A program made the position numbers and the translations under genes. The notes under the pieces are model-generated. The model was not told the origin of the DNA, did not search any database, and worked only from the letters and a program-made list of their open reading frames with translations. A stretch of 64,000 bases of DNA from Bolinopsis microptera (lineage: Eukaryota > Ctenophora > Tentaculata > Lobata > Bolinopsidae), in contig NC_087076.1 in the NCBI RefSeq assembly GCF_026151205.1, positions 16,018,419-16,082,418 of the forward strand, given 5' to 3'. This document shows, piece by piece, positions 1 to 48,400 of this stretch (position 1 is its first letter; the number at the start of each line of letters is the position of its first letter).

Positions 1-276
1 CTCTTACTTGCACTATCAGTGGACTGTCCCAAAATACTCCGATTACATGGATAGGACCTGACAACAACGAAATTTCTGAATCCGACACCAGCGACTATGT
101 GATTAATCAAGAAACATTTGTGTTTTCTAGCAAGGCCTCCACCTTGACTATAACGCCATCGGTTCTTGAATCTCTTCCCTCTACCTCTGTCTACAAATGT
201 AAACTCAAGTCCGCTGCTTATCCTGACTTTTCACCTGAAGTTGTGAACGAGATGACCCTTACTATATTGGAACTCG
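1..276 (+). CDS. Gene 1 Ig exon, type 1 (A1), cut by window edge
   Basis: The reading starts just before the first Ig cysteine (LTCTISG). The tryptophan is in PITWIGP and the second cysteine in VYKCKLKS. The exon ends LELG at donor GTAAAA. The variant SDYVINQETFVFSSK is more diverged than most copies. Confidence 0.88.
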
Positions 277-3200
277 GTAAAAATCATTAAAAGATGTGTT
301 AGATAACCTTACAGTTGATCTCATAGTTATCAGGCAGTCTTTAATTCGTTTTAAAAGAGGGTGTTTCCCATGATTGTATTTTTGCCCAAAAGTCATATCT
401 GCCCTTTTAACAATGATATAACACATCTCCTCTAAAGGTGTTGAGCCTACCAACAAAGAGGTGGAAAGTGGAACAGATACTACAGTTTCATGTTTCATTT
501 CGGGTATCACCCGACAACTTGACGCTGTTGTTTGGAGAAAGGACGGCACCGATGTAACGACTTTGTCAGGAAGCAACTATGTTGTATCTGCAGGGCCTTA
601 TGGTTCCAACTCTCAAACTACAACACTTACTGTAAAAGCTGCTGCTAATACAGCTGATTCCACTTTTACGTGTGCCATCACTTCTAACGAACACCTAGAG
701 ACCAATAAAGAAACCTTTGTTACTTTGAACGTGTTTGGTAAGACATCTTATTGTATCAGATTAGTAGAAGCAATTAATTGTATAATTCTATCGAGTTTAT
801 AACAAATAACACCTTGGCTTAGTTTCGTGCCCAACGATCACTCCGGTGAAGCGTCGGGAATTATTGCGCTTAGCACTCAACAACCAAGGAATTATTTTAT
901 TATATTTACAACAAGCCATGCATGTTTCAGCCTTCCAACTCTTTTTCATAGTAGTGAATATTGTTCGTTATGATTATTATACTATTACTTATCATTTTCA
1001 TGCTATTACAGATGCGTCGTTGGATGACCGAACAGTTGTGCCTGCCACGGATCAGACTATCATATGTTCGGTGTCTGGGTTATCACAGAACACACCTGTA
1101 ACATGGATTGGTCCTGATGATAACGAGATATCAGAGTCTGACTCAAACAACTACTTGATCAGTCAAGGCAGTTTTATTTTCGGAAGCAAAGCTGCCACTC
1201 TGACCATAAAAGCAGCTAAGATGAGTTCCCTGACGTCTGGAGCAGTTTTCAAATGTAAACTGAGGTCGTCTCTTTATCCAACTCATTCGCCTGATGTAGT
1301 AAAAGAAATGGAACTTTCTTTTTATACCCTAGGTATACAGACTTTTTAAATGTACTTCCAATTTGTATGTTGATAAGAATTCGATTACTACCATTTGAAT
1401 ATGATTTTAGGATAATTTTGAATCTTTGATTTGACACGTTTATTCCACTTTTCTCACAACACTCATGATGGTAAATACTTAACCTGTTCTTATCTAAATT
1501 GCTTTTTCAGCGGTTCAAACTGTAAACAAGGAAGTACAATCTGGAGCTGATGCAACCATATCTTGTGTCATCACTGGTATTACCAAAAACCTGGACTCGG
1601 TCATCTGGAGGAAATCTGGTACCGATGTAACAACTTTGTCAGGAAGCAACTACGTTGTATCTGCAGGGACTTACGGTTCCAACTCTCAAACTACAACACT
1701 TACAGTAAAGGCTGCTGCTAATACTGCTGACTCTACCTACACTTGTGCTATCACATCTGATGAGTGGCTGGAAACAAATAAAGAAACCACCTGTGATATT
1801 AAACGTGTTTTGTGAGTCGAACTTTTGATTCAAGACATATATTTTCTAATGGCAAAAATAATTTGTAGCAAAAACAATTAATACTGCTGATACTGATATT
1901 ATTACATTATTTTCAGCCGTTACTTTTGAAGATAAGGTTGTCACCACTACGTCCGATCAAAATCTTATCTGCACGATCAGTGGGTTAGCACAGAACACCC
2001 CTGTAACTGGATTGGACCTGACAACAACGAGATATCTGACTCTGACACCAACAACTATGTTGTTGATCAAGGCACATATATTTTCGGAAGCAAGACATCA
2101 ACACTCACCATCAAAACAGCCAAGTTTGCCTCTCTATCTTCAGGAGATGTGTTCAAATGTAAACTGAAGTCTGCTCTCTATCCTACTGACTCCCCGGAGG
2201 TGGTGAATGAAATGACTCTGACTCTCCTTGAGCTAGGTATGACCTCGATAGCTTCGTCGATCAAATATCCTCCATAAAGCTTTATTTCTCCCTGGCTCAA
2301 TGGTTTCCTCTTTTGAAGTTTTTCCTTAATTTGGTGTGGCTGTATTCTCCGATCTATGTATCAATATCTATGATTTCGGGATTAGAAAGTATCATATGAC
2401 TTCTTATGTGTTTACTAACCCAGCAATGTTTTCTTGTTCTTTGTAGTTTTCTCGATTTCCGAATAACGATACATTTCTAATAGGACTACCTGCTGCATTT
2501 AATATTTTTACTTGTTTTCAGTTGTTCAACCAATCAACAAAGAAATCGAATCTGCGACTGAATCTACCATTTCTTGTGTAATATCTGGTATCACCCGACA
2601 ATTGGACGCTGTTGTTTGGAGAAAGGATGGCACAGATGTAACAACTTTGTCAGGAAGCAACTATGTCGTATCAGCAGGAACTTACGGTTCCAACTCTCAA
2701 ACTACAACACTTACCGTAAAGCTGCTGCTAATACAGCTGACTCTACCTACACTTGTGCTATCACATCTGATGAGTGGCTTGTCACTGATAGGCAGACTGG
2801 TGTTTTCCTGAATGTGTTTGGTGAGTATTTGTATTATATCACTATATCATATAGACCATTTAGCTATGTAGGTTCCATTTGATTCAAACGATTATTATCT
2901 TTTGCGTATCTTAATTGCATACTGATTTTTGCATACTTTTTGCATCTTAAATATCTGTAAGTGGGAAATTATCGGCGTTGCTCAATTATAGTGATTGACA
3001 CTCTAGACTACATGATCACTCGTTTATATTCATAATTATTCTTCAGTTGTTTCATTTGATGACAGATCCGTCTCTACTGGGGTTGATCAAACAATATCTT
3101 GTGTAATTTCGGGGTTATCACAAAACACTCCCGTAACTTGGATAGATCCTGATGGCAATGACATATCCAACACCGACACCGACAATTATGTCATCAACCA

Positions 3201-6200
3201 AGGCAACTTCTTCGCCGGCACAAAGACCGCTTCTCTAACTATCAAGCCAACTGTGTTGCAGACTCTTGAAACAACCTCAGTTTATTTGTGTAAAGTAAAG
3301 TCCGGATTTTATCCCGACTTTTCTCCCGATGTTGTAAACGAAATGACTCTTACTCTGCTGGAACTAGGTAAGTGGAATCAATAAAATTAATTATTAATAA
3401 TTAATTATTAATTAAATCTCTGTTCGACATAATCGTCCAATATTCAGCTCCCTTGCCCCTTTGTGTTTTATATTGTACTGGGTCAGGAGATTTTAGGGAA
3501 CTACTATCCACTGTCATTTGACTGGGCTAAGGTTAAGATAAAACCAATAAACCACGTACAAATTAGTTTGAAGATCAATGTTTGTTCTGGGTAAATGAAA
3601 TGGTTTTTTTTTTCAGCTGTTTCACCCATCAACAAAGAAGTGGAGAAAGGAACTGATGTAACAATATCATGCGTCATCACTGGTATCACTCAACAATTGG
3701 ATGCTGTTGTTTGGAGAAAAGATGGAACCGATGTTACATCTTTGCCAGGAAGCAACTACGTTGTATCTGCAGGAACTTACGGTTCCAACTCTCAAACTAC
3801 AACACTTACTGTAAAAGCTGCTGCTAATACAGCTGATTCAGCATACACTTGTGCTATCACATCTAATGAATATCAAGAAATCAATAAAGAAACCTCGGTG
3901 GTACTAGATGTGTTTGGTAAGACTTTAAGACTTGTTTCCCTCTGAGATAATTTCATGACGTTGTAAAATATTCTGGAACTATAAGTGATATTCAATCAAG
4001 GTCACCTTTATAAAGATTGTTATTCAAGTACTATCGATGTAAAATAACACTTTGTCAAGCTTAGATAGTCGTTAAAAAGTAATCCATTTTCCTTTTCAGT
4101 TATCTTCTTGGACGATAGATCAGTTTCCACGGCAACAGATCAAACCCTCTCCTGTCTGATATCCGAACTATCCCAAAACACTCCCGTTACCTGGATCGAC
4201 CCCAACGGTAACGAGATATCTGAATCTGATACTGTCAACTATGTTGTGGATCAGGGGACTTATATCTTCGGAAGCAAGTCCGCTACATTAACCATTACGA
4301 CAGCAATGATGGCAGGCCTTACATCAGGGGATATGTTTAAGTGTACACTTAGGTCTGCTCGCTATCCGGATAATTCACCTGATGTTGCAAACAGATGGTT
4401 CTTACTATTCTCAGTCTAGGTAATGAGTTTCAGCTTTTACACCCTGTTTAAATGTATTATATGATGCTTTAGAATGGAATTGAGTTGGGCCATAAGTTTG
4501 GGAAATGGAGAACAAAATTGTCACTATACCCGTTACTTAATTTTGGACGTTTTTAAAATGTACTCTACTAATAATATTATCTGTCAGAGGTTCGCCCTGT
4601 TAGCAAAGAAGTCGAATCTGGAACTGATGTCACCATCTCTTGTGTAATTTCTGGTATCACCCAACAACTTGACGCTGTTGTCTGGAGGAAAAGTGGAACC
4701 GATGTTACGACCTTGTCAGGAAGCAACTATGCAGTATCTGCAGGAACTTACGGTTCCAACTCTCAAACTACAACACTTGCAGTAAAAGCTGTTGCTAATA
4801 CCGCTGACACAACCTACACTTGTGCTATTGCATCTGACGAATGGCTTGTGTCAAATCAGCAGACGGACGTTGCACTTGATGTCTTCTGTAAGATTTTAAC
4901 TGAAATTCTTTCGTAGAAGTTTTCATATTATTTAATTCGGATAACCTGAAACCATTTTGCCTGAAATAAAATTTAATACTTCATATAATGCTAGAACACC
5001 AACAATTTGATTAATATTTACCCTCGAATTTCAGCTGTTGTATTGGAGGACAGAGCCGTTTCAACTGCTACAGATCAGCTACTGACCTGCACTATCAGTG
5101 GTTTAGCGCAGAACTCACCTGTAACTTGGATTGGACCTGACGACAACGAAATATCAGACTCTGACACCAACAACTATGTTGTTGATCAAGGCACTTATAT
5201 CTTTGGAAGCAAGGCGTCAACATTGACCATCAAGACAGCAAAGTTTGCTTCTCTACCTTCAGGAGATGTGTTCAAATGTAAACTGAAGTCTGCTCTCTAT
5301 CCTACTGACTCCCCGGAGGTGGTGAATGAGATGACTCTGACTTTACTGACTTTAGGTAAAAATGGGTAGCAGATGAAAATGTTTTCGATTGAATATATGA
5401 AGGCTTTCCTTGAGTCAGGACGGTGTTTATTGGATAGATTACACTTAATTTTGTACATAAATTTAATACGATTGTTAATCGTCAGTATAAATATAATTCT
5501 TTAGATGTAAAACCAACAAACAAGGAGGTTGAAACGAGAACAGACGCAACTATTTCGTGTGTTATCACCGGTATCACTCGACAACTTGATGCTGTTGTTT
5601 GGAGAAAGGATGGAACCGATGTTACATCTTTGTCAGGAAGCAACTATGTTGTATCTGCAGGGACTTACGGTTCCAACTCTCAAACTACAACACTTACTGT
5701 AAAAGCTGCTGCTAATATAGCTGACTCAACCTACACTTGTGCTATCACATCTGATGAGTGGCTACTGGCTAATAAAGACACCACTATATCATTGGAAGTT
5801 TTCTGTAAGTCATATAATCTTCCAATCCAAATCTTATATTACACTATTGATTTATCCCACTTAAAATTGCGCAGGTTTGAATTTAAAAGCAAGAAATGTT
5901 CAGTTTTAAATTTCTAACAGCTCTTAATTAAAACAATTACAGCGGTATCCTTCGAAGAGAACAGGTCCATCACAACTGCCACAGCTCAAACACTCACATG
6001 TGGGATCAGTGGGCTAGCAGCAGTAACTGGTGTCACTTGGATCGGTCCCGACAATAATGAAATATCAGACTCTGACACCAACAACTATGTTATTGATCAG
6101 GGAACATTCGTTTTTGGAAGCAAAGCTTCAACACTCACCATCAAGACTGCAAAGCTTGCTTTCATATCATCTGGAGATGTGTTCAAATGTAAACTAAAAT

Positions 6201-9200
6201 CTTCTTTATATCCAAATGACTCCCCAGATGTTGTGAAAGAAATGGTTCTCACTCTGCTGACTTTAGGTTTGTAACAGTATTTTATTTATAAATTCCGAAA
6301 ATAAGTTACGTGATAATTTTTATTAAATTTTTTATTTGTTGGTTTTTCAAAAGACGCTAAATATAAAGATTATAATTTGGAGAATCGAAATTCGACACCT
6401 TCTATGACGTCCTTTAATGTTACTAAAAACCGCAATTAATTTCAGATGTTCAATCAATTGATAAAGAAGTAGAATCTGGAACTGATGTCACCATCTCTTG
6501 TGTAATTTCCGGTATCACCCAACAACTTGATGCAGTTGTCTGGAGGAAGGATGGCAGCGATGTAACGACTCTGCCAGGAAGCAACTATGTTGTCTCTGCA
6601 GGAACTTACGATTCCACTTCCATCTCGCAGACCACCACACTCACTGTAAAGGCTGCTGCTAATACAGCTGATTCTACCTATACCTGTTTCATTACATCTA
6701 ACGAGTGGCTTCAGACCAACAAGCAGACCAATGTGGTCCTAGGAGTGTTCTGTGAGTAACATTCAATCATTGTGTTAATTTGTACAGAGCATTGAAGAGG
6801 TTCCAATATATTTTGGACGCATCGACTACTAGTACTAGTTCTGATTTTTTATTTTCAGTTGTTTTATTCGACGATGTTGCGGCACCACTGGCTACGGAAC
6901 AAGTTTTGACTTGCACTATTGGTGGGCTATATCAAGATACACCAGTTTCTTGGATAGGACCCGATGACAGTGAAATATTGGTATCTGATACTACACGTTA
7001 CGTTATTGATCAAGGAACCTACGTATTCGGTAGCAAAGCCTCGACATTGACTATTAAACAAAGTGTCATATCCACACTATCTGTAACTTCAGAGTATAAA
7101 TGTAAAATCAAGTCTGCTCGCTATCCTACTTATTCACCCGATGTGATAAAGGAGATGACTCTCACTTTGCTACAACTAGGTAACTTATATTATTTAATTT
7201 GTGGATTTGAATGAAAATTAAGGAAAAATGGAACGAAACATTAACTTGACTCAGGAATTCACATCTATTTATCAACTTATCATTTTAAGGTGTATGATTC
7301 GAATAAACTTCAATGTGACTATGATTGTTTCAGTTATTGAGCCTACGAACAAGGAAGTCGAGACTAGAACAGATGCGACTGTTTCCTGTATAGTTACTGG
7401 AATAACCCAACAACTGGACGCTGTTGTTTGGAGGAAAGATGGAACTGATGTTACGACCTTGCCAGGAAGCAATTATGGTGTATCAGCAGGGTCTTACGGT
7501 TCTAACTCTCAAACTACAACACTTACTGTAAAAGCTGCTGCTAATACCGCTGATTCTTCGTACATTTGCGCTATCACCTCCACAGAATATCTGGTTAATA
7601 ATAGGGAGACAGCAGTGGCATTGGATGTGTTCGGTAAGAAGTGATCCAAATTATTGTACTTACATAGTTTTCAATTTTAAAAATCGTTGAATATCATTAA
7701 GTGGAATGTTTTTTGACCTTCATATTGAAGACAAATAATTTCAGGTGTCGTGTTTGAGGACAAGTTCGTTTCGGCTGCAATCGATCAGACTCTGGACTGC
7801 ACAATTAGTGGTTTATCTCAAGATACTCCTGTTATTTGGGTAGACCCTGACAACAACGATGTTTCGGACTCTGACACAAACAACTATGTGATTGAGCAGG
7901 GAACTTTTGTCTTTGGAAGCAAAGCCTCAACACTAACCATCAAACAAACAAAGTTAGCGACACTCGCTACTGGATCTGTGTACAAATGTACATTGAAGTC
8001 TTCTCTTTATCCAACCTATTCTCCTGATGTGGTGAAGGAGTCGACTCTTACCTTCTTGGGTCTAAGTAAGTCATGTCTGGTATACGTAATCAATTTTGTC
8101 TCTTTACTTTAATCTTTGATTCCTTTCGTATGATATGTTAATTATTGACTTTGTGATATTTTAATGCGTAAATCAGAAAGAAAACAATTTGCTGAATTAT
8201 TGTTATTGATTTTGAGTATAATTTTAACATTTTCAGACATTCAACCAACTAACAAGGAAATCGAAACCGGAACTGAGACAACAATATCTTGTATCGTTAC
8301 CGGAATAACCAGGAAACTTGACGCTGTTGTTTGGAGGAAAGAGGGTACCGATGTTACAACTTTGTCAGGAAGCAACTATGTTGTATCTGCAGGGACTTAT
8401 GGTTCTAACTCTCAGACTACCACTCTAAACGTAAAAGCTGCTGTTAATACAGCTGCCTCTACCTACACTTGTGCCATTACTTCTAACGAACATCAGGAGA
8501 CGGACAAAGAGACGAAAGTTGTGCTTAATGTGTACTGTGAGTGTTATAGTTTTTAGCCAAGTTTCGTTAATAGCAGCTTGGTTGGCAAAATGCCACGATT
8601 ATATTTGTTATGCTACAACCAGGTTTAATGATAATTGATTATTTATCTTATCTAAAACTGTTTAACTTCAACTGTATTCATGAATTTCCTTTTCAGCGGT
8701 TGTATTCGACAACAAATCCATCACAACAGCCACTGATAAGTTCTTAACATGTACTGTCAGCGGACTATCACAGAACACACCCGTCACGTGGATAGATCCT
8801 GAAAACAACGAGATACCAGACTCGGACACAAATGATTATGTCATTGACCAAGGAACTTATGTGTTCGGTAGCAAAGCGTCAACCCTGACCATTAAAACTG
8901 ATAAAATCAACTCTTTGTCATCTGGAGATACGTTCAAATGTAAATTGAGGTCTGCCCAGTTCTCAACATACTCACCAGATGTCGTTAAGGAGATGATCCT
9001 AACCTTGTTGACTTTAGGTAAACAACTTTATACATTTGCTTTATAATTTAGATATGTGTTGTCTAGACTCCCTGCCAATTTGACATTTTGCAATGCTTAC
9101 TTTCACCACGGTGTTCTCCAGGGTGGTATTTTAGAGCCGTACAACTAAACTTTGCTCAGATTGATTGTTATGATGTTTTACTGAAGCCTATAATTTTCAG

Positions 9201-12200
9201 ACGTTGAAGCTACAAACAAGGAGGTGGAAGTGGGTACAGATGAAACTATTTCCTGTGTTATCACTGGCATTACCAAACAACTGGACTCGGTCGTTTGGAG
9301 AAAGGACGGCACCGATGTAACGACTTTGTCAGGAAGCAACTATGTTGTTTCCGCAGGGACGTACGGTTCCAACTCTCAAACTACAGAGCTAACTGTAAAG
9401 GCTGCTGCTAATACAGCTGACTCAACCTACACTTGTGCTTTCACATCCGACGAATGGCTACAGACAAACAAGGAAACTAATGTCATTCTAAACACATACT
9501 GTAAGCTCAATTTTTTCTCATTCGTATGCTATACAATCGATCTCAATAAATTTATTTATCTAAAAAATCTACGATTTTTCAAGATTCAATTTTCTTATTT
9601 AAAAAATGAATTGAGCAGATCATAAATCGGTCAATTGTAAAAGTTGAATATTTTCAGCTGTCATCGTTAAAGACGTAACAGATGGTGTTAAAACAGACCA
9701 GACTCTGACATGCACGGTATCTGGATTATCACAAAACACACCGGTATTCTGGGTAGATCCTGATAATAATCAAGTAGACAACTTTGATACTGAAAACTAC
9801 GTCATCGATCAAGGAACGTACGTGCTCGGAAACAAGGTCGCGACTCTGACCATCAAAGAAGCTAAAGTTGTGACACTAGGCTCCAGCTCTGTGTTCAGAT
9901 GCAGACTAAAGTCGGCTATTTTCCCTACGTACTCACCAGATGTTGTTAAGGAGATCAGCTTCAGCTTTTTGGGCTTAGGTAAGGCACAGATGGTGAAAAT
10001 GATAAAAGAATCACTATATGTGTGGTGACATAATATGTTTCAAATTTATAATAATAGTTGGACATTGTACCATGGGCAGGGCTTGAGGATGAAACATACT
10101 TATCAAGGGAAAAAATCGCTCTCTAAGATAACGTTGAACTCAAATCTTCTTGCAGTTATATTAATCACAATTGTTTTACTAACAACAATCCTTTCCAGTT
10201 ATCCAGCCAACAAACATTGAAGTTGAGCAAGGCACAGATGCTACAATATCTTGTATTGCTTCTGGAATCAGTCAAGGGTTGGATAAGGTTGTTTGGACGA
10301 AATCTGGCACCGACGTAACGACTTTATCAGGAAGCAACTATGTTGTATCAACGGGGACTTACGGATCCAACTCTCAAACTACAACACTTACTGTAAAGGC
10401 TGCTGCTAATACAGCTGACTCAATATTTACATGTGTTATCACTTCAAACGAGCACCAGGAGACTAATAAAGAGACTGCTGTTAGTCTCGATGTCTTTTGT
10501 AAGTTCACTTTGACGATTCCTATAATATAACTATGTCTATCCCATTAGAATTCAGAAAGAATCACACAATTCATTTTCTTACTGTAAATAGTTTAAGTCA
10601 ATTTTAACTAGTTTTCCTACTCTAAAATGAAAGTTTTACCAACTTTTGCAGCTGTTGTGTTCGAGGACAGGACAACGGCTGTTGGGGCTGCAACAACCAT
10701 CACGTGCACCGTTATTGGACTATCTGAAAACACTCCTGTTACTTGGATTGATCCATCTAACAATGAGATATCCGGGACAGACACCAGCAACTATTTTATA
10801 GATCAAGGACATTTATATTCGGTAGCAAAGCATCCACTCTCAAGATATTTGAATCCAAGTTACAGAATCTGCCCTCATCATCGATCTTCAAGTGTAAACT
10901 GAAATCTGCACGTTATCCAACGCACTCACCTGATGTGGTGAAGGAAATGACTCTTACCGCCTTTGGTCTAAGTATGTGTATTTTTCTTTATTCTAGTGAA
11001 AACAAAAATTAAAAACAAATCCATCTACCAATATAATTTGATTCCAATACTGTAGAAGTCCTTCATTCGTGCCTTTAACTAAATTATCATTTCGCTCAGG
11101 TGTACAAGCGGTTAACAAGGAAGTCCTGACTGCAACTGATGCAACCATTTCTTGTGTTATTTCTGGAATTACTCAAAAACTGGACGCTGTTGCTTGGAGA
11201 AAAGATGGAATCGATGTTACAACATTCTCCGGAAGCAACTTTGTTGTATCTGCAGGAACTTACGGTTCCAACTCTCAAACTACAACACTTACTGTAAAAG
11301 CTGCTGCTAATACTGCTGACTCCACCTACACTTGTGCTATCACATCTGATGAGCATCAGGAGACAGACAAGGCAACTTTGGTGACATTGAAAGTGTTCTG
11401 TAAGTAAAGCACAAGTCGGTCAAAATTAATGTATGAACTACTCTCATTGATAAGTATTTTTTGTGTCTCGTTTTTCCCTGAAATTAAAAACTTAATTCAA
11501 TTTTTTGCAGCTGTTGTTTTCGAGGACAAGGCAGTCATTACCGCAACCGACCAAACTCTGGTATGTACAATTAGTGGATTGTCACAGTACACTCCTGTTA
11601 CTTGGATCGGACCAGACAACAACGAGATATCAGACTCTGACACCAACAACTATGTCATTGATCAAGGCAACTATATTTTTGAGAGTGTAGCGACAACCCT
11701 GACCATCAAGACCGCCAAGTTTGCTTCCCTAAAATCAGGAGATGTGTTCAAATGTAAACTGAAGTCTGCTCGTTATCCTTCTGACTCCCCGGAGGTGGTG
11801 AAGGAGATGACTTTGACCTTACTGTCTCTAGGTAAAATATAATGATATTCCACGTATTGAAATTGCATAGTCCTTGTGAAATGTTTTTAGTAAGACTTTG
11901 ATTATCATTCATCTGTTCCACAGAAAATTATAATTGTTGTAAAAGCTTTATACAGTCATCTACTAACCTATTGCAATTTACCAGATATTGAACCTACCAA
12001 CAAAGAAGTGGAAAGTGGTACAGATGCTACAGTTTCATGTGTTATTTCTGGTATCACCCGACAACTTGACGCTGTTATTTGGAGGAAGGATGGTACTGAT
12101 GTTACAACTATTACAACTGGAAGCAACTACTTTGTATCGCCAGGAACTTACGGTTTCAATTCTCAAACTACAACACTTGTTGTAAAGGCTGCTGCTAACA

Positions 12201-18200: not shown

Positions 18201-21200
18201 CAGAATCTTCCATCATCATCGATCTTCAAGTGTGAACTAAAATCCACTAGTTATCCAACGTATTCACCAGAAGTGGTGAAGGAAATGACTCTCACACTAA
18301 TCGGCCTAAGTAAGTAATATTGATGATGTCTTTTGTGATAATCAGCTGGTTCTTCTATAATAATTTGTAACTTTTAATCGTATATTAAAATGAAATTTTG
18401 TTTCCCGTTCTTATCAATTATATCGCTCAGGTGTACAACCAGTTAACAAGGAAATCCTTACTGCCACTGATGCAACCATTTCTTGTGTTATTACCGGCAT
18501 CACTCAACAATTAGATGCTGTTGTTTGGAGAAAATCTGGTACCGACGTTACAACATTCTCCGGAAGCAACTATGTTGTATCTGCAGGAACTTATGGTTCC
18601 AACTCTCAAACTACAACAGTCACTGTAAAGGCCGCTGCTAATACAGTGGATTCAACATATACGTGTGCTATCACTTCAAATGAGCATCAAGAAGTCAATA
18701 AAGCGACTGTTGTGACACTGAATGTCTTTTGTAAGTTGTTTTAACCGTGATTACTTCATTAATCTGTTTATATCAATTTAAAAATTTGTTTACTTTTGGT
18801 CTTATTGTAAGCTCTCGGTATCCAAAATAAAAGGAACAATAAGCTTAATAGAATTCGTTCCCCCAGCTGTTGCATTTGACGATAAAGCTATCTCGACTGC
18901 AACCGACCAAAATTTGGTGTGTACGATCAGTGGACTATCACAAAACTCCCCTGTAACTTGGATTGGTCCTGATAACAACGAAATATCAGACTCTGACACC
19001 AACAACTATGTTGTTGATCAAGGCACATATATTTTCGGGAGCAAGGCATCAACTCTGACCATAAAAACAGCCAAGTTTGCTTCTCTATCTTCAGGAGATG
19101 TGTTCAAATGTAAACTGAAATCTTCTTTCTATCCTACTGACTCCCCGGAGGTGGTGAATGAGATGGTTCTAACTCTGCTGACTCTAGGTAACAAATCATT
19201 CCATTAAAATGCCATTTATAATTCATATGCTATATTTATAATTCATATGCTATATTTATTTAATTCATTAATTCCGGTTATATTGTTATTTTAAGCGAAT
19301 ATATATGTGCCATGAATCAGTATCCCTGCAGCTTTCAAGTTAAAATAATGATACAATTCAACAGATATTGAGCCTACCAACAAAGAAGTGGAAAGTGGTA
19401 CAGATGCTACAGTTTCATGTTTCATTTCCGGTATCACCCAACAACTTGACGCTGTTGTTTGGAGAAAGGATGGAACCGATGTAACATCTTTGTCAGGAAG
19501 CAACTATGTTGTATCTGCAGGGACTTACGGTTCCAACTCTCAAACTACAATACTCACTGTAAAGGCTGCTGTTAATACAGCTGACTCAACATACACTTGT
19601 TTCATCGCTTCCAGCGAGTGGCTTGTTACCAACAGGCAGACAAATGTGCTCGTAAATGTGTTCGGTAAGGATTTCTCCGTTTAATACTGTAGATGATTAT
19701 TATTTAATGTTAATGTTGATTCATGGATTCCTCCTTCATTTTTCTATTTCACGGAAACTTACATGATCATATTTTCAGCTGTTGACTTTGTAGACAGAAC
19801 TGTGGCAACTGGAGTTGATCAATCTCTAACATGCACTATTAGTGGATTGTCGCAGGACACCCCTGTTACCTGGATAGATCCTGACAATAACGAAATATCC
19901 AATAGTGACACCAATAACTATGCGATTGATCAGGGAACTTTTATATTTGGAAGCAAAGCCTCAACCCTGACTATCAAGCAATCTAAATTGGAGAATCTGC
20001 CCTCATCATCGATCTTCACGTGTAAACTGAAATCTGCTCTTTATCCAACGTATTCCCCAGAAGTGGTGAAGGAAATGACTCTAACACTCATCGGACTAAG
20101 TATAAATATATTGATACTTAGTTTCTTACAACTGGCTGATATTTCTAAGATAATTTGATGTTCATAAGCAATTTTAAAAAGAAGTTTAATTTGCATTGTG
20201 TTCTAATCAGTTATTCTGCTCAGGTGTACAACCGGTTAACAAGGAAGTCCTCACTGCAACTGATGCAACCATTTCTTGTGTTATTTCTGGAATTACCCAA
20301 CAACTGGATGATGTTGTTTGGAGGAAAGATGGTACCGATGTTACATCTTTGTCAGGAAGCAACTATGTTGTATCTGCAGGGACTTACGGTTCCAACTCTC
20401 AAACTACAACACTTAGTGTTAAAGCTGTTGCTAATACAGCTGACTCTACCTACACTTGCGTCATAACATCTAATGAGCACCAGGAGATCAATAAACCGAC
20501 TTCTGTGAAACTGAATGTCTTCTGTAAGTTTTTTAGATCGTTATTACGTCATACGGCTGCAAAATTCAATTTTATTTCGTTTTTCTTCCTTCTCTCTTTC
20601 GATCATTTTTATGTCCCATTCTTATAATGTTAGAAAGAATAACAAGCTTAATTCATTCGAATTCTTAAGCTGTTGTTATTCAGAAGTGAAGTAATAAGAC
20701 ATCTAATTTGATTCAATTTCTCAGCTATTTTACTTGACGACAAATCTGTTTCAACTGCAACTGAACAAAATTTGGTGTGTACGATCAGTGGATTAGCACA
20801 GAACACCCCTGTTACTTGGATTGGACCTGAAAACAATGAATTATCAGACTCTGACATCAACAACTATGTTATTGATCAAGGCACTTATATCTTTGGAAGC
20901 AAGGCGTCAACATTGACCATCAAGACATCAAAGTTTGCTTCTCTATCTTCTGGAGATGTGTTCAAATGTAAACTCAAGTCTGCCCTCTATCCAAATGATT
21001 CTCCAGATGTTGTGAAAGAAATGGTTCTCACTCTGCTGACTCTAGGTAACAAATCATTGCATTCATACGCTAACATCATACTTGAAATTCGATTTGATTT
21101 TTATAGCTATGACTTAAATCTGTGGCCCTTCCGATTTGGATTTTTAATGGTTCTCTAAAATAATGATTTTCTTCAACAGATATTGAACCTACCAACAAAG

Positions 21201-24200
21201 AAGTGGAAAGCGGAACAGATACTACAGTTTCATGTGTTATTTCTGGTATCACCCGACAACTTGACGCTGTTGTTTGGAGAAAGGATGGAGCCGATGTAAC
21301 ATCTTTGTCAGGAAGCAACTATGTTGTATCTGCAGGAACTTACGGTTCCAACTCTCAAACTACAACACTTACTGTAAAAGCAGCTGTTAATACAGTAGAT
21401 TCAACATACACTTGTTTCATCGCTTCCAGCGAGTGGCTTGTTACCAACAGGCAGACAAATGTGCTCGTAAATGTGTTCGGTAAGGATTTCTCCGTTTACT
21501 ACTGTAGATAATTATTATTTAATGTAAATGTTGATTCATGGATTTCTCTTTCATTTTTCTATTTCGCGGAAACTTACATGATCATATTTTCAGCTGTTGA
21601 CTTTGTAGACAGAACTGTGGCAACTGGAATTGACCAATCTCTGACATGCACTATTAGTGGATTGTCGCAGAACACCCCTGTTACCTGGATAGATCCTGAC
21701 AATAACGAAATATCCAATAGTGACACCAATAACTACGCGATTGATCAGAGAACTTTTATATTTGGGAGCAAAGCCTCAACCCTGACTATCAAACAATCTA
21801 AATTGGAGAATCTGCCCTCATCATCGATCTTCACGTGTAAACTGAAATCTGCTCTTTATCCAACGTATTCCCCAGAAGTGGTAAAGGAAATGACCCTAAC
21901 ACTCATCGGTCTAAGTAAGCATATTTTCATGTAACCTTGTTAGTTGTTATGTTAATTGGCTTTTGTTTCAAAAATAATTTGATTTTTATGAGCAATAAGT
22001 TTCACCTTTTAATCTAATATTTTCTCCAGGTGTACAACCTATAAATAAGGAAGTCCTTACTGCCACTGATGCCACCATCTCTTGTGTTATTACCGGCATC
22101 ACCAAACAATTGGATGCTGTTGTTTGGAGAAAGGATGGAACCGATGTAACGTCTTTGTCTGGAAGCAACTATGTTGTGTCAGCAGGGACATACGGTTCCA
22201 ATTCTCAAACTACAACACTGACTGTAAAAGCTGCTGCTAATACAGTTGATTCAACTTATACATGTGTTATTACTTCAAATGAGAGTCAGGAGAAAAATAA
22301 ACCGACTGTCGTGAAACTAAATGTCTTTGGTAAGTTTTTCAGGTTTTGTTTCATTTTCCTCTTTGTTACAATTTTATTGGTCCCAGACCCTGCAGTCATC
22401 AATGAATAATAAGTTTAATCCAATTCTATTTCCAGCTGTTGCTCTTGACGATGAAGTTGTCACAACTGCAACCGACCAAAATTTGGTGTGCACGATCAGT
22501 GGATTGTCACAGGACACACCTGTTACTTGGATAGATCCTGATAACAACGAGATATCAGACTCTGACACCAACAACTATGTTGTTGATCAAGGCACTTATA
22601 TCTTTGGAAGCAAGGCGTCAACATTAACCATCAAGACAGCCAAGTTTGCTTCTCTATCTTCAGAAGATGTGTTCAAATGTAAACTGAAGTCTTCTTTCTA
22701 TCCAAATGACTCCCCAGATGTTGTGAAAGAAATGGTTCTCACTCTGCTTACTCTAGGTAGATATTTTCAATACATGTGTTTTAGATCGCTTTTTACAGAC
22801 AATCCGTTTCGCTTTTAATTTTATGTTTGATAAATTTGTACCCTTAAAAAATTGTCGAGGAAAAATTGCTCCTTAGTTTTGACGTTCACTCAATAACCGT
22901 AGCTTTTAATCTGAAGTAGAAGAATACCGTGCCAATACTATAAGTATTGACATCTCTTTAATCATAATCTAACAAATATACCACCGTCAGAGATTGAGCC
23001 TACCAACAAAGAAGTGGAGGGTGGAAAAGATACTACAGTTTCGTGTGTTATTTCTGGCATCACCCAACAGCTGGATGCAGTTGTCTGGAGGAAGGATGGT
23101 ACTGATGTTATGACCTTGTCAGGAAGCAACTATGTTGTCTCTGCAGGAACTTACGGTTCCAACTCTCAGACCACCACACTCACTGTAAAGGCTGCTGCTA
23201 ATACAGCTGACTCTACCTACACCTGTGCTATTACATCCAACGAGTGGCTTGTAACCAATCAGCAGACAAATGTTGTCTTGAATATATTCGGTAAGAATTT
23301 GTCGGTTTAATCTTGCAAATGTTTATTGTTCACTGTAGCTTGATTCATCCTTCGCTTACTATATTTTTTTGAAGCTAATTTGAGCTAATTTAACTTCCTC
23401 TCCTCCTCCCCTAATAACTTCACTCCCTACAATTCCATTCTACAAAGGGATGATGTTAAATCTTATCTCGACAGTCTTTCTTCTTCTTTTATTATTTGCT
23501 CCGTAGATAAAGCTTCAAATAATTATGTTTTTGTCTGCAAGAAGTTTTATCTTTTAACCCTTCTCAACGAACTTGGCTACGATCTCACTTCTCTAGAGTG
23601 TCGTGGCAATTCTACTTATCATCCGGTTAACTCTGTAGAGGATGATATTATTCAGGAACATGTGAACTTCATTAAAGATAACTTTAATATTCGTGTTTCT
23701 GAGGACAACCTTTGTCTACCGAGAATCTTTTGGATTCCTAAACTTCACAAGAATCCTTATAAGTCTAGATTTATAGCTGGGGCCAGTAAATGTACCACTA
23801 AGCAGATATCAGTTGTAGTCAACAAAGCTTTAAAAGTTTTAAAAGAATACTTTTCCAAATACTGCAACTCTATCTACAACAATACTGGAATTAACTGCGA
23901 CTGGAGCATTAACAGCTCTAAACAGTTCCTGGAAAGGCTGCCTAGACTAGAGATTTTTAATATGCAGGTATACGACTTTACCACTCTGTATACCAATCTA
24001 GACCTTCAGGTTGTACAGTCACTGCTTTTCGAGCTAATAGATCTCCTCTTTAGTAATACGAATAAATTTATTTGTGTTTCTCTGTATAAGAACAACAATT
24101 TTTTCTCTAAAAAGGAATATAACGGATACTTATGTTTTTCTGCTGATAAACTCAAAACAGCTATTACATTTATTCTGTTTAACACTTTTGTTTGTTTTGG

Positions 24201-27200
24201 GGATCAGATTTTAAGACAAACGAAAGGCATTCCCATGGGAGGGAATTCTAGTAGCCAGTTCGCTGATCTTTCGCTAGGGAAGTGTGAATTCAACTACATG
24301 ACACGCCTAATCAAAGAAAAGAAGTTCGGTCTCGCTAAGCTCCTCTCAAGAAACTGCAGATATGTCGACGACCTCAACACCATGAACTATTTGCATTTCT
24401 CTAACCTAATCAGGTCCATTTATCCACCTGACCTGCTTATGGAGAGGAGTGGTGACGACAATAAGTCCGTAAACTATCTCGACATCAACATCTCGATGAA
24501 TAACTCCGGACACGTCGCCACCAAGCTTTACAACAAACTTGATGACTTCAACTTTCCTGTGGTCATGTACACCTTTCCTAACAGTAATATTTCCTCTTCT
24601 GTTGGTTATAATGTTTTTTACGGTCAGGTCCTTCGTTACTCTTCCATTATCTCTGACCTTGATTCTTTTCTGTGTTCTACCAACACCCTTTATAGGACAC
24701 TTCTTTCAAGATGTTATAATGACAGACTCCTGAAGAGTAAATTCAGAAAGCTTCTGAAAGACCGACCTAGTATTCTGTACAAATACAGTATACTTGATGT
24801 CAGCGACATCCTTGACATCACATTTAACGTGAACAGGTGATCACTGACGAGTGATTGCTAGGGGGTCTTGGCACATTAAACCGGTACAGGTATTAAACCC
24901 CCGAAACCGGTGTGCCAAGTCATCTGCTGATGATGTTCACATAACATTATTTCCTCTCTCCTTTATTCCTTCCGTCTTTTCTTAAACTTACAGTTCAGTT
25001 ACTTTATTTCACCAGGTCTACCTAAGGATCAATTATTCTTTGGTGGGGTTTCACTTCTGGTATTGGCTTCATTCCCGCTCCTTTTCCTTATTCTTTATAC
25101 TTATTTTTTATATAGTTTAATGAGATTGATGAATTCATCGATTTCTCCCTGTGAACAGTCATTTGACGTCAATATATTTTCAGCTGTTGAACTTGTTGAT
25201 AGAACTGTGGCTACTGGAATTGATCAATCTCTGACATGCACTATTAGTGGATTGTCACAGGACACCCCTGTTACTTGGATAGATCCTGACAATAACGAAA
25301 TATCCAATAGTGACACCAACAACTATGTGATTGATCAGGGAACTTTTATATTCGGAAGCAAAGCATCGACTTTAAGCATCAAGAAATCTAAATTACAAAG
25401 TCTGCCCTCATCATCGATCTTCAAGTGTAAACTGAAATCAGCTCGTTATCCAACGTACTCACCTGATGTGGTGAAGGAAATGACTCTTACACTCATCGGC
25501 CTAAGTATGTATTTTGATGCTTGAATTTCTTTTAGCAATTGCTTCTGTCTCGAAAACTATTTGATGTTTATTATTCATTTGACAATGTGTTTCTGCCTTC
25601 ACATTCTAATTACTTATATCGTTCAGGTGTACAACCGGTTAACAAGGAAGTCCTCACTGCAACTGATGCAACTATTTCTTGTGTTATTTCTGGAATTACT
25701 CGACAACTGGATGATGTTGTTTGGAGGAAAGATGGTACTGATGTTACATCTTTGCCAGGAAGCAACTATGTTGTTTCTGCAGGGACTTACGGTTCCAACT
25801 CTCAGACTACAACACTTGGTGTTAAAGCAGCTGCTAATACAGCTGACTCAACTTATACATGTGTCATTACTTCAAATGAGAGTCAGGAGACAAATAAACC
25901 CACTATCGTCACACTGAATGTCTTTTGTAAGTTTGTCATGGTGAAATTACATTAATAATAGAGCAATATGGTTTGATATTATTTCTCCCCTGGCTTACCT
26001 TTTTGTTGCAAATTATTTTCCAGCAGTAACGAAATGATAGAATAGTCTAATTTGATTTCTCAGCTGTTTCACTTGACGATAAAGCTATCACAACTGCAAC
26101 CGATCAAGATCTTATCTGCACGATTAGTGGATTGTCAAAGAGCTCCCCTGTAACTTGGATAGATCCTGATAACAACGAAATATCAGACTCTGACAATAAC
26201 AACTATGTCATTGATCAAGGCACTTATATCTTTGGAAGCAAGGCGTCAACATTAACCATCAAGACAGCCAAGTTTGCTTCTCTATCTTCAGGAGATGTGT
26301 TCAAATGTAAACTCAAGTCTTCGTTCTATCCAAATGACTCCCCAGATGTTGTGAAAGAAATGGTTCTCACTCTGCTAACTCTAGGTTTGTACTTATTCGG
26401 TGTTCTATCATCGTTTTTGACAAACACAGAATCTGATTCGCTCTTATTCTTTACAAATTTGTACCCTTAAACTCTGTTCAAAGAACAATAGCCCCTTAAA
26501 TTTTAAGTTCATTCTGTAAAATTTTTGACGGTGTCAATTATAAATATTTAGATCTCTTTAATCTTAAAATTATTTCATCATCAGATATTGATCCTACCAA
26601 CAAAGAGGTGGAAAGTGGAACAGATACTACAATTTCATGCGTTATTTCTGGTATCACCCGACAATTGGATGCTGTTGTTTGGAGAAAGGATGGAACCGAT
26701 GTAACGTCTTTGTCAGGAAGCAACTATGTTGTTTCTGCAGGGAATTATGGTTCCAACTCTCAAACTACAACGCTTACTGTAAAGGCTGCTGCTAATACAG
26801 CTGACTCTACCTACACCTGTGCTATCACATCTGATGAGTGGCTTGTAACCAATCAGCCGACGAGTGTGGTCTCGAATGTGTTAGGTATGAGTTTTTTCCT
26901 GCACCCTGTCTATTTAAATGACAATTTCTTAAACAGTACAACTTTTACTCAGTTGGTGACATTTTCCCTTTATTGCACTTTCAAAAATTAAGAAAAGTTG
27001 TTAACCGCATGATAATTTCAGATGTTGAATTTGTTGATAGATCGGTGCCAACTGCAGCTGACCAATCTCTGACATGCACTATTAGTGGATTGTCACAGGA
27101 CACCCCTGTTACTTGGATAGATCCTGACAATAACGAAATATCCAATTCCGACACCAACAACTATGTGATTGACCAGGGAACCTATGTTTTCGGAAGCAAA

Positions 27201-30200
27201 TCATCGACTCTCGTGATCAAGCAATCTAAATTGGAGAATCTGCCATCATCATCGATCTTCAAGTGTAAACTGAAATCAGCTCGTTATCCAACATACTCAC
27301 CTGATGTGGTGAAGGAAATGACTCTTACTCTTGTTGGTCTAGGTACGTCCATTTTATTGTTGCCTTTTGTTCAGCAGGGACACCGTTTTTGAGAGCATAA
27401 GCGGTTGGGGATCTTACCTTGTTCACCGTTTTTGTTTCCTTCATAAGCTTTCCATAATTCAAGTCAGTCTTGTTTGGTTATTTATGTTTCGTTTCAACTA
27501 TTCATTATTTTGCTCAGGTGTACAACCAGTAAAGAAGGAAGTCCTCATTGCAACTGATGCAACCATCTCTTGCATCGTTACTGGCATCACCCGACAATTG
27601 GATGCTGTTGTTTGGAGGAAAGATGGAACTGATGTAACAACTTTGTCCGGAAGCAACTATGTTGTATCTGCAGGAACTTGGGGTTCCAACACTCAAACTA
27701 CAACACTCACTGTAAAGGCTGCTGCTAATACAGCTGACTCAACCTACACTTGTGCTATCACATGGCAGGAAGTCGGCAAAGAAACCATTGTGAACCTGAA
27801 CGTATTCTGTAAGAACAACTTTGCCCTTCCTAATGAATTTACCTTATTGGACGTTATTTGATCAGACACTAAAATGAACGCTAGCGTCCATTTAATGTCC
27901 GTTCAAATAAATTCCGATAAGGTATAATGGTATAGATTATAGAAACATCCGATCTAAAAAGTTGATTGATTGGTAATTTGATTGATTTATTTAACCTTAT
28001 AAAATGCTTTCTCTTCAGCGGTACTATTTGAAGACACGTCTGTTACTACAGCCACTGATCAAACTATAACCTGCTCTTTGAGTGGACTATCACAAAACAC
28101 TCCTGTAACTTGGATTGGACCTGACAACAACGAGATATCAAACACTGACACCAACAACTATGTCATTGATCAAGGATTTTATGTTTTTGGCTCCAAAGCA
28201 GCGACTCTTCTCATCAAGACAGCTAAACTAGCCACACTCTCATCTGATTCTGTGTACAAATGTAAAGTAAAGTCCTCCCAGTATCCTGAAAATTCTCCTA
28301 ATGTTGTTACACAAATCAGCCTGACGCTGCTTCAGTTCGGTAAGTAGTTGATTGCTGTAACCACAGTAACCACAGTAACCACAGTAACCACAATAACCAC
28401 AGTAACCACAGTAACCACAGTAACCACAGTAACCACAGTAACCACAGTAACCACAGTAATAAAGCCTTTTGGTTAGTTACTAATAATTCGTTATCCGAAA
28501 CTAAGAAAACATGGACTGACTTCGTTAATTCTTAACAGATATTGAAGCGAAAAACCAGGAGGTCGAAAAGGCAACCAACGCTATTCTGTCTTGCATTATC
28601 ACTGGAATAAGCCAACAACTAGACGCTGTTGTATGGAGAAAGGATGGCACCGATGTTACATCTTTGTCTGGAAGCAACTATGTTGTATCTACAGGAACTT
28701 ACAGTACTAACTCTCAAACTACAACACTCACAGTACCAGCTGCTGTTAATGCTGGTGACTCGACATACGCTTGTGTTATCACTTCTAACGAGTGGCTTGT
28801 CACCAATCAGCAGACATCTGTGTCTGCAACTGTATTCGGTAAGGGTGATTTCTTATGAATTGTCTCTAACTTTCAGCATACCTCAGTAAATTGTGCAGTG
28901 TACAGAGTGTTGGTTTATTCGCATGACTATAGTAGGTGCTTTGAAAGATAAAACCGGCGACTTTTAATATATTTCAAGCAGATTTCAAACAAAATCATCT
29001 CTCTCAGAGTTTACCGTGAACCCGACAGCGCAAGACTTGGTTGGCGGAGACAGTCTCTCCCTGTCCTGCAAGATATCTGGCAGCGCACAAGTGACAGTTA
29101 CCTGGCAGAAGGATGGAGTTGATATCAGCTCTGAGAACAGTATTTACAGCCAACAAGATATCTTCTCAGGGGGTGTCACTACCTCTATCCTCACCAGTGC
29201 TAATGCAGGCACCAGTTAGTTCCTTGCTTGTTAGGCTTAAACTTTGAGTATTACCGGCTACTTGCTAACTTGGTACTGCATGATGATATAAAATGAACCG
29301 GAAACTTTAGAACATTATCAAAGAATATTGTTAAAATTGTTAAATACTAAATCCTCCAGGTGTGATTGGTAGTTACCAATGTGTTGCCACGAAAGGAACA
29401 CTTTCTTTGACTTCGTCACCTGCTTCTGTCTCTGTGAAAGGTTATATATTGATATAACTCCATTAGTGCTGGGGCTTGGGGGTGTGCTCATCATTCAGTG
29501 ATTCTTATAAATTATCTTGTCCTCGGATTAATTCAATCGGATGCTGTCTTCGAATCTTTCACATCATTGAATATTAAATTTATTTCAGCTCTCGATTTCG
29601 TGAGTTCAGTGGCAGAGAGAGGAGAGGAGGTGACTTTGGAGTGCTTGTACACCGGACCTGACACCGTTACCAGTATGGTACTAGAGGTTCAGTCACAGGG
29701 TACATGGGTTCCTGTTCAGACCAACTCATTTGTCACCGCAGTTAATCAGTAAGTTTCTTATATTTTCTATTTTCTATTCAAATTGTTTTGACAAATTTTT
29801 GACTCGAGAAGTCCCACTTCATTCGGATTCATTCTTATTTCTTTATTCGAGAATGTGGCTTAAATTCAAAACAAAATTATAACCCATTGCTGCTAATTTG
29901 TGAGTCCTGCCTCATGTTAACAAAACTGCTAAACCTGCAACCAACCCCAGGTTGAGTACGTCCGGAGAAAAGCAATTTAGCTCTATCGTACTCACAGCTG
30001 ACAGAGCGGTGGAATACAAATGTACCGCGGAGTATGGTGGAAACACTTACGTGAAGACCGCTACTCTTACTGTTGTTGAAGGTAGCATACACTGACTCCA
30101 TAGTAATTAAGAGTTTGCGCTTTATTTTTCAAACTGTAAATTCAACATATTTTAATAATTCATACTCAATAATCGCCTCGTCCCAGTTGAGCCCGCTACC

Positions 30201-45469: not shown

Positions 45470-48400
45470 GTGGGTACAACATGGCCCTAACTATCTTACA
45501 TCATTTTGAATTTATCTTAACTTTTTCATTATGGAGGGTAAAACGTCTGGTAACCTTGACTTATATCAATTTACAAATGGTTATTTCAGCTCGCTGAGGG
45601 GGGTTCCAACAGAAAGAAGAGAGATCTACCATATCGTTTTAGACGATCTGTATTGAGAAATAAGAGGTACAACGCCGGCCTCCCAGAAGATGTAGATATC
45701 GGTATAGACGGTATAGTCGGTCTACAACGATCTACCTCTAAGTTGAGAAGGAACTCAGAGTCTACAATTAGCCAAGAATGCTCTGAAGGATCAGTCGGTA
45801 TTGACGGCCAGTGCAGTAAGTATATCTCTATTTGTTACTTTGTCACTACTCAAGCTTCTTCGCTTCTTGTTGGATACAATCTTTAAACTTCATACAACAA
45901 TTAGTGTTTTAACAATTTCTAGGACTTTTTGCTGTCAAATTTTTAAAACGCCTCCAGTGCTTGGATCGATAATGTATAAACACTAGCTCTGAGGGCTCGT
46001 GTTTATACTGGGTATATCCACAACCGGACCAAAAACTGTCGGTGTTCTTTGTGTTGTAAATCTTTATTTTCTTTTGAAACGTTTTCCGCTCATACAAACT
46101 ATTTTATTTCATGCGTCAACACCGACACAGACTCTTTGCTAGGCACCCACAAAGACAACCAACAAACATTAACGGACACTTACACGATACACAAATATGT
46201 TCTTATAAATGACCATGACAAAATACTGATCCCAGATTACGACAAAACGTCAGGTACTTGACAAAACCCTGACAAATTACTAACATTGAATTTATAATTC
46301 AAAACATCCACGCTTATTTCGACTTTTGATGAGCACTTCTTTAGGCAAATACCCAAACCAACCTATTCATTTAAATGTTCATTTATTCATTGAAGAGTTG
46401 TATTTACTGCAACAACAAAAAAACTGTGTAGTGTGTAACGACCGACCCCTCAGTTTCACATTTTAAAACTATAACCCCACCAGGTCAATGTGGAGCCGGA
46501 ACCTTTGCCTCAGGCGGAGTCTGTGTGCAGTGTCCCAAGGGCACCTATCAGAGCAGCTCAGGGCAGACTTTCTGTAACAGTTGTAACGCAGGAAAATCTA
46601 CCATCTCTGTTGGTAGCGCATCTGAGGACAGCTGCATAGGTTCGTGATTTTACAGGATAATGGTAGCTGTTATACAATGTTGTATTTTATTTCTCTGTCT
46701 TCCAATCTTTTTATTGAAATTTTGATTATTATCGCCTAACAAAATTTCCATATAAAACATTAAAAACGCTCCCAAATTTGATGTATGTTGACACCAAACA
46801 TTTCCCCACAGTCGTTTGTAAGATCCCTGAAGTGCCCTACGGAACACCAGACCCACCCGCCGGCTACCAAATTGCAGACGGGTCTCAAGTTACCATAACC
46901 TGTGATTCCACCTATAAGATCAACAACAACAACGTGTTTACCACCACCTGCGCATCTGATTTACCTTCCTGTAGCTGTGAGTTTGTGGATTAATTTCTTA
47001 TCATTGTCAGTAGATTTAGTTGCTGGCTTGTATTGTCAGGGTCCCCTTGAAGACCCCCTCAGATAAGGTGTATCTCTTAAAACGAATCTAAACCCCTTAA
47101 CACACCCTCCCCTCAGACGTAACAACAAGAGCAGAAAACAGTCAAGTAATCGGAGGAACAAACGGTGTTCTGACGTGTCAGGTGACATCAGGAGATGCCC
47201 CCTCTACCTGTACTTGGTGGAAAGACAGTCAACAGGTTCGTAATTTGATAAATAAACTGATTCGCAATCCTACTTCGAGAATCTTCCTGAGCTGCTTCAA
47301 GATTCCTCTCTTGTCATAAATCTAGGGACTGTTACAATAAAATATCTGACCCTGTTCCTGTGTTCCAGGTGTCCTCTGGGATCAGTAGTATCTCCTCCGA
47401 CGGGGACACCCACCAGTGCACGCTGACCCTACCCTCCTTCTCCTCCAACGATGTTGCCAAGTACCAATGTAGAGCCGTCATCAATGGGAACACTGAGTTA
47501 GCTGCTCGTAATGTAGAGGTTGGATTACTAGGTGAGGAATCAATACTGAATCTCTCTCGCTTAACTTTTATTAAGTGCTTTGATATTATTGTAGTTTTAG
47601 TGATTAAAAGATTAACAATCTTTCTAATTTCACAATTAATCCCAGAGATCACGTATGATACCTCATCCCTGGCGATAGAGGTAGGTCAGTCTGCAACTTT
47701 AACCTGCACAGTGACCAACCCTGACGATCTAGACCTCCCTGCGGAGGTTCAGTGGATGAAGGTATGCTGATATTATGTGGATATTGTTTGAATACTTAAT
47801 TGTATGTGGATGAAGGTATGTGATTCGTCATTTTAATGCATACTTAATAAATTGTAGTTTTTCTTGAATATAGCTTTGTTTTTTATTAAAGAGAACAGCT
47901 CCAATCTCTGACAGTACTTTATTCTTTTCTCATGCAGATCGCAGAAAATGTTTTTATTCTAATTATTAAACTACTCTATCCTGAACACTTTTCGAATGTT
48001 CATAAACACATGCTTAAATATCCGCATACAATGTTGTTAAACAAAACTATTTTAGTCTCATTCAATAGTTTATTGTAGAAATCATTATTTCTTCATCTAA
48101 GAGTACTAATTCTGAGGAAGAGAACTAAAAAGAGTGCGGATAACATCTCTCATCATAATAATTCAAAAAACAGATTTAAATGAAAACGCGAATTCATAAT
48201 TTGATCAGATTCTTAACCAATCTCCCCTCAGGACGGTGATCTACTAGGCTCCCCCAGCTCCATGATATTTGAACCGGGAGTTGCAACTCTGGATCTGAAC
48301 TCTGTGACAGTATCTGATGCTGCCGACTACAAGTGCGTCGCCTCCTACCAGGGGATTGGAGTCATCACAAGCAATCCTAAACCTGTATATGTCAGAGGTA

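Follow-up and report, generated by a model that had tools for sequence, protein, structure and literature searches.

An array of 111 single-exon immunoglobulin (Ig) domains, in which two domain types alternate without a break, extends through part of a 64,000-nucleotide stretch of the ctenophore Bolinopsis microptera genome (assembly GCF_026151205.1, contig NC_087076.1, positions 16,018,419 to 16,082,418 of the forward strand). This stretch is called the window below; its numbering is used throughout, negative positions lying upstream of it. With moderate confidence the array can be regarded as the repeat region of a single, very large Ig gene whose product would be extracellular. Comparison of sequences across the genome indicates that the underlying two-domain pair is an old building block, which was multiplied in the ctenophore genome.

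Extent and exon architecture of the array

DNA profiles of both domain types combined with splice-site fitting place the array at -26386 to 28838 (55.2 kb). The exons follow the order A B A ... A, all 111 of them in alternation (56 A and 55 B), where A is the type of about 300 bp and B that of about 321 bp (types 2 and 1, respectively, of an earlier sequence-only reading of the window). That reading had described 58 alternating single-exon Ig domains, 29 of each type and mostly 321 or 300 bp long, which were recovered by re-counting in the window. Of the span it proposed, 1 to 28838, the downstream end is retained, but the array starts 26.4 kb upstream of the window edge and the first exon reaching into the window begins at -44. 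The observation was right and understated. The exons in the window are as follows (borders by splice fit, for exon 54 by profile and splice fit; for exons with broken frames, alignment to the nearest copy was added).

1..276 (starts at -44, cut by the window), +, exon 54, type B
438..737, +, exon 55, type A
1012..1332, +, exon 56, type B
1511..1811, +, exon 57, type A, 1-bp indel, broken frame
1917..2236, +, exon 58, type B, 1-bp indel, broken frame
2522..2820, +, exon 59, type A, 1-bp indel, broken frame
3047..3367, +, exon 60, type B
3617..3916, +, exon 61, type A
4100..4419, +, exon 62, type B, 1-bp indel, broken frame
4588..4887, +, exon 63, type A
5035..5355, +, exon 64, type B
5505..5804, +, exon 65, type A
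5943..6266, +, exon 66, type B
6446..6751, +, exon 67, type A
6859..7179, +, exon 68, type B
7334..7633, +, exon 69, type A
7745..8065, +, exon 70, type B
8237..8536, +, exon 71, type A
8697..9017, +, exon 72, type B
9201..9500, +, exon 73, type A
9658..9978, +, exon 74, type B
10199..10498, +, exon 75, type A
10652..10971, +, exon 76, type B, 1-bp indel, broken frame
11100..11399, +, exon 77, type A
11511..11831, +, exon 78, type B
11985..12287, +, exon 79, type A
12399..12719, +, exon 80, type B
12837..13136, +, exon 81, type A
13248..13568, +, exon 82, type B
13803..14102, +, exon 83, type A
14235..14555, +, exon 84, type B
14693..14992, +, exon 85, type A
15120..15440, +, exon 86, type B
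15761..16066, +, exon 87, type A
16192..16512, +, exon 88, type B
16642..16941, +, exon 89, type A
17083..17403, +, exon 90, type B
17559..17858, +, exon 91, type A
17989..18309, +, exon 92, type B
18431..18730, +, exon 93, type A
18867..19187, +, exon 94, type B
19365..19664, +, exon 95, type A
19779..20099, +, exon 96, type B
20224..20523, +, exon 97, type A (modelled, Ig fold)
20725..21045, +, exon 98, type B
21180..21479, +, exon 99, type A
21594..21914, +, exon 100, type B
22030..22329, +, exon 101, type A
22436..22756, +, exon 102, type B
22991..23290, +, exon 103, type A
25184..25504, +, exon 104, type B (modelled, Ig fold)
25627..25926, +, exon 105, type A
26064..26384, +, exon 106, type B
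26585..26884, +, exon 107, type A
27022..27342, +, exon 108, type B
27518..27808, +, exon 109, type A
28019..28339, +, exon 110, type B
28539..28838, +, exon 111, type A, final exon of the array

Exon length is exactly 300 bp in 48 of the 56 A exons and exactly 321 bp in 49 of the 55 B exons, and exons account for 34,492 bp of the 55,225-bp span. The introns are short (median 148 bp, minimum 104 bp), and since only 2 of the 110 exceed 500 bp, little room is left for gene ends inside the array. The two long introns, of 1,224 bp after exon 50 and 1,893 bp after exon 103, do not disturb the alternation. All introns had been assigned to phase 1 in the sequence-only reading; the fitted exons are likewise phase 1-1, but AG/GT borders and this phase were favoured by the fitting script and thus provide no independent proof of the splice sites, for which GTRAG donors (66 of 111 exons) and the uniform lengths give further support. 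Reading frames are open in 104 of 111 exons overall and in 53 of 58 in the window, and each of the 52 open A and 52 open B exons compared contains two Cys codons. Protein identity averages 0.749 among A exons and 0.645 among B exons (1,326 pairs for each type) versus 0.281 in 66 sampled A-B pairs, a contrast larger than expected by chance.

Fold and domain junctions

As judged from the models, both types belong to the immunoglobulin superfamily (Ig fold, two Cys). The model of A (exon 97; predicted local distance difference test, pLDDT, 77.6; predicted template modelling score, pTM, 0.69) has two Foldseek matches in PDB at E <= 0.001, Tyro3 and neurotrimin. The model of B (exon 104; pLDDT 88.2, pTM 0.77) has 53 matches at this threshold, the best being NCAM2, NCAM and MyBP-C. 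By sequence, A domains of the window are recognized in Pfam as Ig_3 (27/27) and I-set (26/27) at E <= 0.001, as well as C1-set (26/27). Pfam matches of B are weak (I-set 8/25 and Ig_3 7/25 at E <= 0.1), with the first member under the cut-off. In sequence comparison with PDB, A matches an antibody heavy chain (6.8e-7), and B has nothing better than 0.035. UrIg2 is also among the PDB sequence matches of A; a literature search on UrIg gave nothing relevant.

Between exons only the splice-junction residue is added, Ala or Ser at 40 of 55 A-to-B junctions and Asp or Glu at 28 of 55 B-to-A junctions. Because a single residue separates neighbouring domains, a series without linkers is suggested.

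Distribution of the A-B pair in the genome

Further copies were sought by protein searches with four queries, one A and one B of the present array (contig C5), a B from a C1 locus and an A from a C7 locus. The queries gave at least 150, 150, 150 and 151 matches, so that all genome-wide counts are lower bounds, and each match was typed by its query. Outside C5, at least 323 pooled matches (153 A, 170 B) fall into at least 30 clusters (15-kb gap), at least 19 of which hold four or more matches. Both types occur in at least 22 clusters, on contigs C1, C2, C3, C4, C6, C7, C8, C9 and C10, and a single type in 8. Among the matches listed there are 293 within-cluster neighbours: 243 lie less than 800 bp apart, all 243 of unlike type, and the other 50 are wider apart and include some same-type neighbours, which carry no weight for or against alternation because the match counts are lower bounds. 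Some pairs of C3 and C7 clusters have near-identical match scores, so the number of loci may be inflated by allelic duplicates in the assembly.

When C5 profiles were run on 19 pieces from 12 loci, alternation held throughout in 12 pieces, in L018 on three weak matches only. It is interrupted in L011, L015, L020 and L023 by weak matches of 9-20 bits; L012 and L016 each lack a B match over about 765 bp close to where the array ends, which could be a real break. A real exception is L019 (C2:17444001-17454000, - strand), where five A-like matches, absent from the pooled set above, stand alone at a spacing of about 400 bp, so A-like domains can multiply by themselves. The locus L009 (C4:3531001-3541000) is a 950-bp tandem repeat with 100% identity over 10 kb, introns included, a homogeneity which may alternatively be an artefact of the assembler.

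In a tree of 84 domains (42 A, 42 B) from 13 loci, A and B are separated with support of 100/98 and in 100% of 200 bootstrap trees; its rows were picked and typed by the C5 profiles (22 from C5, at most four per type from each other locus, below 90% identity), and the alignment has few columns and long branches, the A-like repeat of L019 (A_C2a_1) among them. Locus groupings, judged by eye, are alike in the A and B subtrees. The A-B pair thus probably arose before the loci spread.

Duplication and divergence of the copies

The sequence-only reading had proposed that an A-B pair was duplicated. Recurrence of the pair in the other clusters and the two clades that appear older than the loci bear this out. 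It had also made the pair the unit of function, and this part is weakened. The longest exact run common to A and B is 14 bp (3,080 pairs), compared with up to 82 bp between A exons and 135 bp between B exons; with matches this short, alternation could survive unequal crossing-over, and repeats of whole pairs would be expected, without any selection on the pair. Since alternation can persist passively, a function of the pair does not follow from it. The term "heterodimeric", applied to the pair in that reading, finds no support, as the two types follow one another in a single orientation. Pairing through opposite charge was considered and rejected, both types being negative on average (mean net charge -4.35 for A and -4.62 for B).

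Super-periods are clearest as two-pair units in the last third of the array and as three-pair units among the B exons of the first half; the lags were compared within types only and so give no independent test of whole-pair repeats. From the 39th copy of each type onwards, identity averages 0.78-0.86 at even lags, followed as far as lag 14, and 0.68-0.74 at odd ones. Within the first half, lag 3 of B averages 0.734 versus 0.646 for lag 1, with a weaker effect in A (0.783 versus 0.765). For 38 of the 56 A exons and 31 of the 55 B exons, the closest copy stands at lag 2, 3, 4, 8 or 18; this lag is 18 in 6 A and 5 B exons, although the mean rises only slightly there. Distances among A exons track those of the preceding B (0.50) more than those of the following B (0.35; permuted mean about 0, standard deviation 0.09), a hint that the duplicated unit is B-A after one lone first A.

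Both exon types are under purifying selection. The proportions of synonymous (pS) and nonsynonymous (pN) differences average 0.535 and 0.147 in A (pN/pS 0.27) and 0.664 and 0.219 in B (pN/pS 0.33), each over the 1,326 pairs of 52 open exons. On average there is no sign of positive selection, the highest pN/pS in any block being 0.68. Intron identity at seven lags averages 0.530-0.560 versus 0.521 for shuffled introns, with a minority still alignable (2 to 10 per lag above 0.65 identity). The low pN/pS together with near-random intron identity suggests that most copies are old and that their exons are held by selection.

One part of A departs from this pattern. In codon columns 41-72, pS is 0.23-0.33 versus 0.50-0.81 in the other A blocks, DNA identity is 0.864 versus 0.714 for the remainder of A, and B has no such dip. 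Distances in this core barely track the adjacent B exons (correlation -0.09 to 0.20). Short-tract gene conversion is the likely cause, and constraint on the DNA itself is another possible one.

Broken frames

Seven of the 111 exons contain 1-bp insertions or deletions (indels), namely exons 57, 58, 59, 62 and 76 in the window and 15 and 19 upstream of it; exons 15 and 57 were scored as broken, though weak alternative splice sites could leave either open. Relative to the nearest intact copy, exon 57 has gained a base, exons 19, 58, 59 and 62 have each lost one, and exons 15 and 76 combine a loss with a pair of compensating gaps in the alignment. The indels are likely assembly errors. For its three species, PMC10232365 describes libraries of PacBio continuous long reads (CLR) or HiFi reads; B. 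microptera was assembled with wtdbg, followed by polishing with pilon and Illumina data. By this route uncorrected indels in repeats are plausible, if the assembly used here is the published one. A genome search for a second copy of the most-broken region returned nine matches, all paralogous-looking; the query itself was not recovered, so a second copy is still possible.

A proposed single gene and its alternatives

In a single gene, the array exons would be spliced in series into one protein, with about 11,500 residues from the array alone. As only one junction residue separates neighbouring domains, the chain could take the shape of a long semi-rigid rod, either at the cell surface or within the matrix. 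Such a rod would bind along its length or keep other domains away from an anchor; the protein is perhaps an adhesive or spacer rod. The A-B pair would be the inherited duplication unit. Its alternation would be kept passively, A and B being too dissimilar for recombination with each other, and each fold would be maintained by selection. Several points weigh against this interpretation. The single gene is proposed from genomic DNA, and the rod shape from the junctions and the models of single domains. The seven broken frames, if real, would truncate a constitutively made protein. Downstream Ig open reading frames (ORFs) may belong to other genes, because amine oxidase-like and BTB ORFs on the opposite strand intervene. 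A start, signal peptide and membrane anchor were not identified, and a signal-peptide scan was uninformative (3 candidates on the + strand, 11 on the -).

Alternatively, the symmetric exons could serve as optional cassettes, a subset being included in each transcript so that a diverse receptor repertoire results. Skipping any of the 104 open exons would preserve the frame (phase 1-1, length a multiple of 3), broken ones could be left out of transcripts, and A exons are mosaic-like, with region-to-region distance correlations of 0.11-0.32 versus 0.58-0.71 in B. The model for such a gene is Dscam, whose clusters are tandem symmetric Ig exons encoding mutually exclusive variants of one domain, with intronic docking and selector elements. 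Tandem symmetric Ig exons are common to both, but two types alternate in the array and its introns share no docking- or selector-like word: the commonest 8-mer occurs in 10 of 108 introns versus a shuffle mean of 14.05, and 10- and 12-mers are likewise not above shuffles (exact words only, two long introns omitted). With introns of at least 104 bp, steric exclusion is improbable as well, and this alternative is considered unlikely. The division of the array among several tandem genes has a similarly low probability. The ends of the gene were not located, and the two introns above 500 bp, the second with a reverse transcriptase (RT)-like ORF, could mark borders; against this, the typical intron has almost no space for a start, signal peptide, anchor and untranslated regions, and alternation is continuous across both long introns.

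A decaying or non-coding relic is very improbable. It would account for the 1-bp indels, four of the five in the window lying within 1.5-4.4 kb, but it conflicts with pN/pS of 0.27-0.33 beside near-random intron identity and with the 104 open frames, and the indels are plausible as errors left by the assembly pipeline outlined in PMC10232365, under the same proviso. Compatible with the single gene, and rather doubtful in its own right, is a fast-turnover recognition repertoire, where the A-B arrays across the genome would act in immunity or self-recognition, their diversity arising as pair units recombine. The other clusters with both types, the nearly or fully homogenized arrays (L009), the A core with low synonymous divergence and the A mosaics accord with it, as does the report in PMC11797021 of I-set, V-set and similar domains in hundreds of genes across three ctenophores. 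The block maximum of pN/pS and the absence of any average sign of positive selection speak against it. There is also a slim chance that ctenophores independently evolved a genome-wide giant A-B Ig repertoire from an obligate heterotypic pair, with turnover by recombination (the A core being the exchange tract), as a variable system of recognition or adhesion.

Comparison with known systems

Alternation of two Ig subtypes, one exon each and duplicated as pairs, is known in CEACAM5 (CEA), with the order A1-B1-A2-B2-A3-B3. The array has the same layout of alternating A/B exon pairs, a likeness of layout and not homology; the mammalian protein has three pairs, whereas the array has 55 pairs plus one A, and many loci. 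CEACAMs also have an N-terminal IgV-like domain. No CEACAM is present among the PDB chains listed as sequence matches of A and B. In hemicentin, which is extracellular, many I-set-like domains follow one another between an N-terminal vWA domain and C-terminal nidogen G2F and EGF modules. A long Ig series is common to hemicentin and the array, but hemicentin is not known to alternate two types. Titin/connectin resembles the array in its long Ig series with super-repeats (tandem Ig, Ig-FnIII); it is further marked by one or more kinase domains and the FnIII-Ig pattern of the A-band. Connectitin is given as absent in ctenophores in PMC12198301. The giant adhesin MpAFP has about 120 tandem Ig-like repeats in its region II, according to PMC4083281. 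Being bacterial, Ca2+-dependent and built of one repeat type, it differs from the array and provides an analogy only.

Alternating Ig arrays in ctenophores were not described in the titles and abstract openings found on ctenophore Ig proteins (mostly without subscription papers and preprints, and without supplements). Long Ig arrays are known, but no description was found of one in which two types alternate strictly over 111 domains and whose relatives form clusters of both types on nine other large contigs. PMC10232365 (2023) supports ctenophores as sister to other animals, which makes the array a candidate case of giant Ig proteins of adhesion or the matrix having been invented independently. 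Its relatives span the range from identical copies (the C4 array) to highly diverged ones (C5), a natural series for the study of concerted evolution versus selection in domain repeats.

Neighbouring features

The region studied around the array covers 133.9 kb, and outside the array the A and B protein profiles reach at most 17.2 bits on its ORFs. Ig-like ORFs, found by eye and by pattern, lie on the array strand at both sides of the array; many of these flanking domains appear to be split over two ORFs (by eye), unlike the single-exon domains of the array. Candidate members of the array gene and other features are listed below.

28968..29216, +, ORF beyond the end of the array, resembling the first half of a following Ig domain (17.2 bits with the A profile)
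38095..39772, +, three more downstream Ig ORFs, not of A or B type, candidate members of the array gene
46718..46990, +, Sushi-like ORF, candidate member of the array gene (E 0.0011, 19.8 bits versus a curated cut-off of 20.7)
76654-76887 (L007:2754-2987), same strand as the array, ephrin-receptor-like domain (1.1e-9), close to a second weak Sushi-like ORF on this strand (E 0.0061, also below the curated cut-off), both candidate members of the array gene
31737-33701, -, ORFs resembling flavin amine oxidase (PF01593; one of them at 4.4e-8)
55922-57343, -, BTB-domain ORF (9e-7)
23389-24837, +, open RT-like ORF of 483 residues in intron 103/104 (by eye; best Pfam match 0.11, an unrelated domain of unknown function)

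The ORF 73113-74372 contains several Ig-like stretches. An Rfam scan of the window gave no match at the gathering threshold. Upstream of the array, at -29119..-28142 (+), an ORF resembles by eye the reverse transcriptase of a long interspersed nuclear element (LINE). The long ORF at 60909-61820 (-) looks, by eye, like a G-protein-coupled receptor, with no Pfam match at E <= 1. Two tandem repeats were also observed: an 18-bp minisatellite (52206-52564, 19.8 copies), open in several frames, and a 9-bp repeat (28357-28459, 11.4 copies) in the intron between exons 110 and 111.

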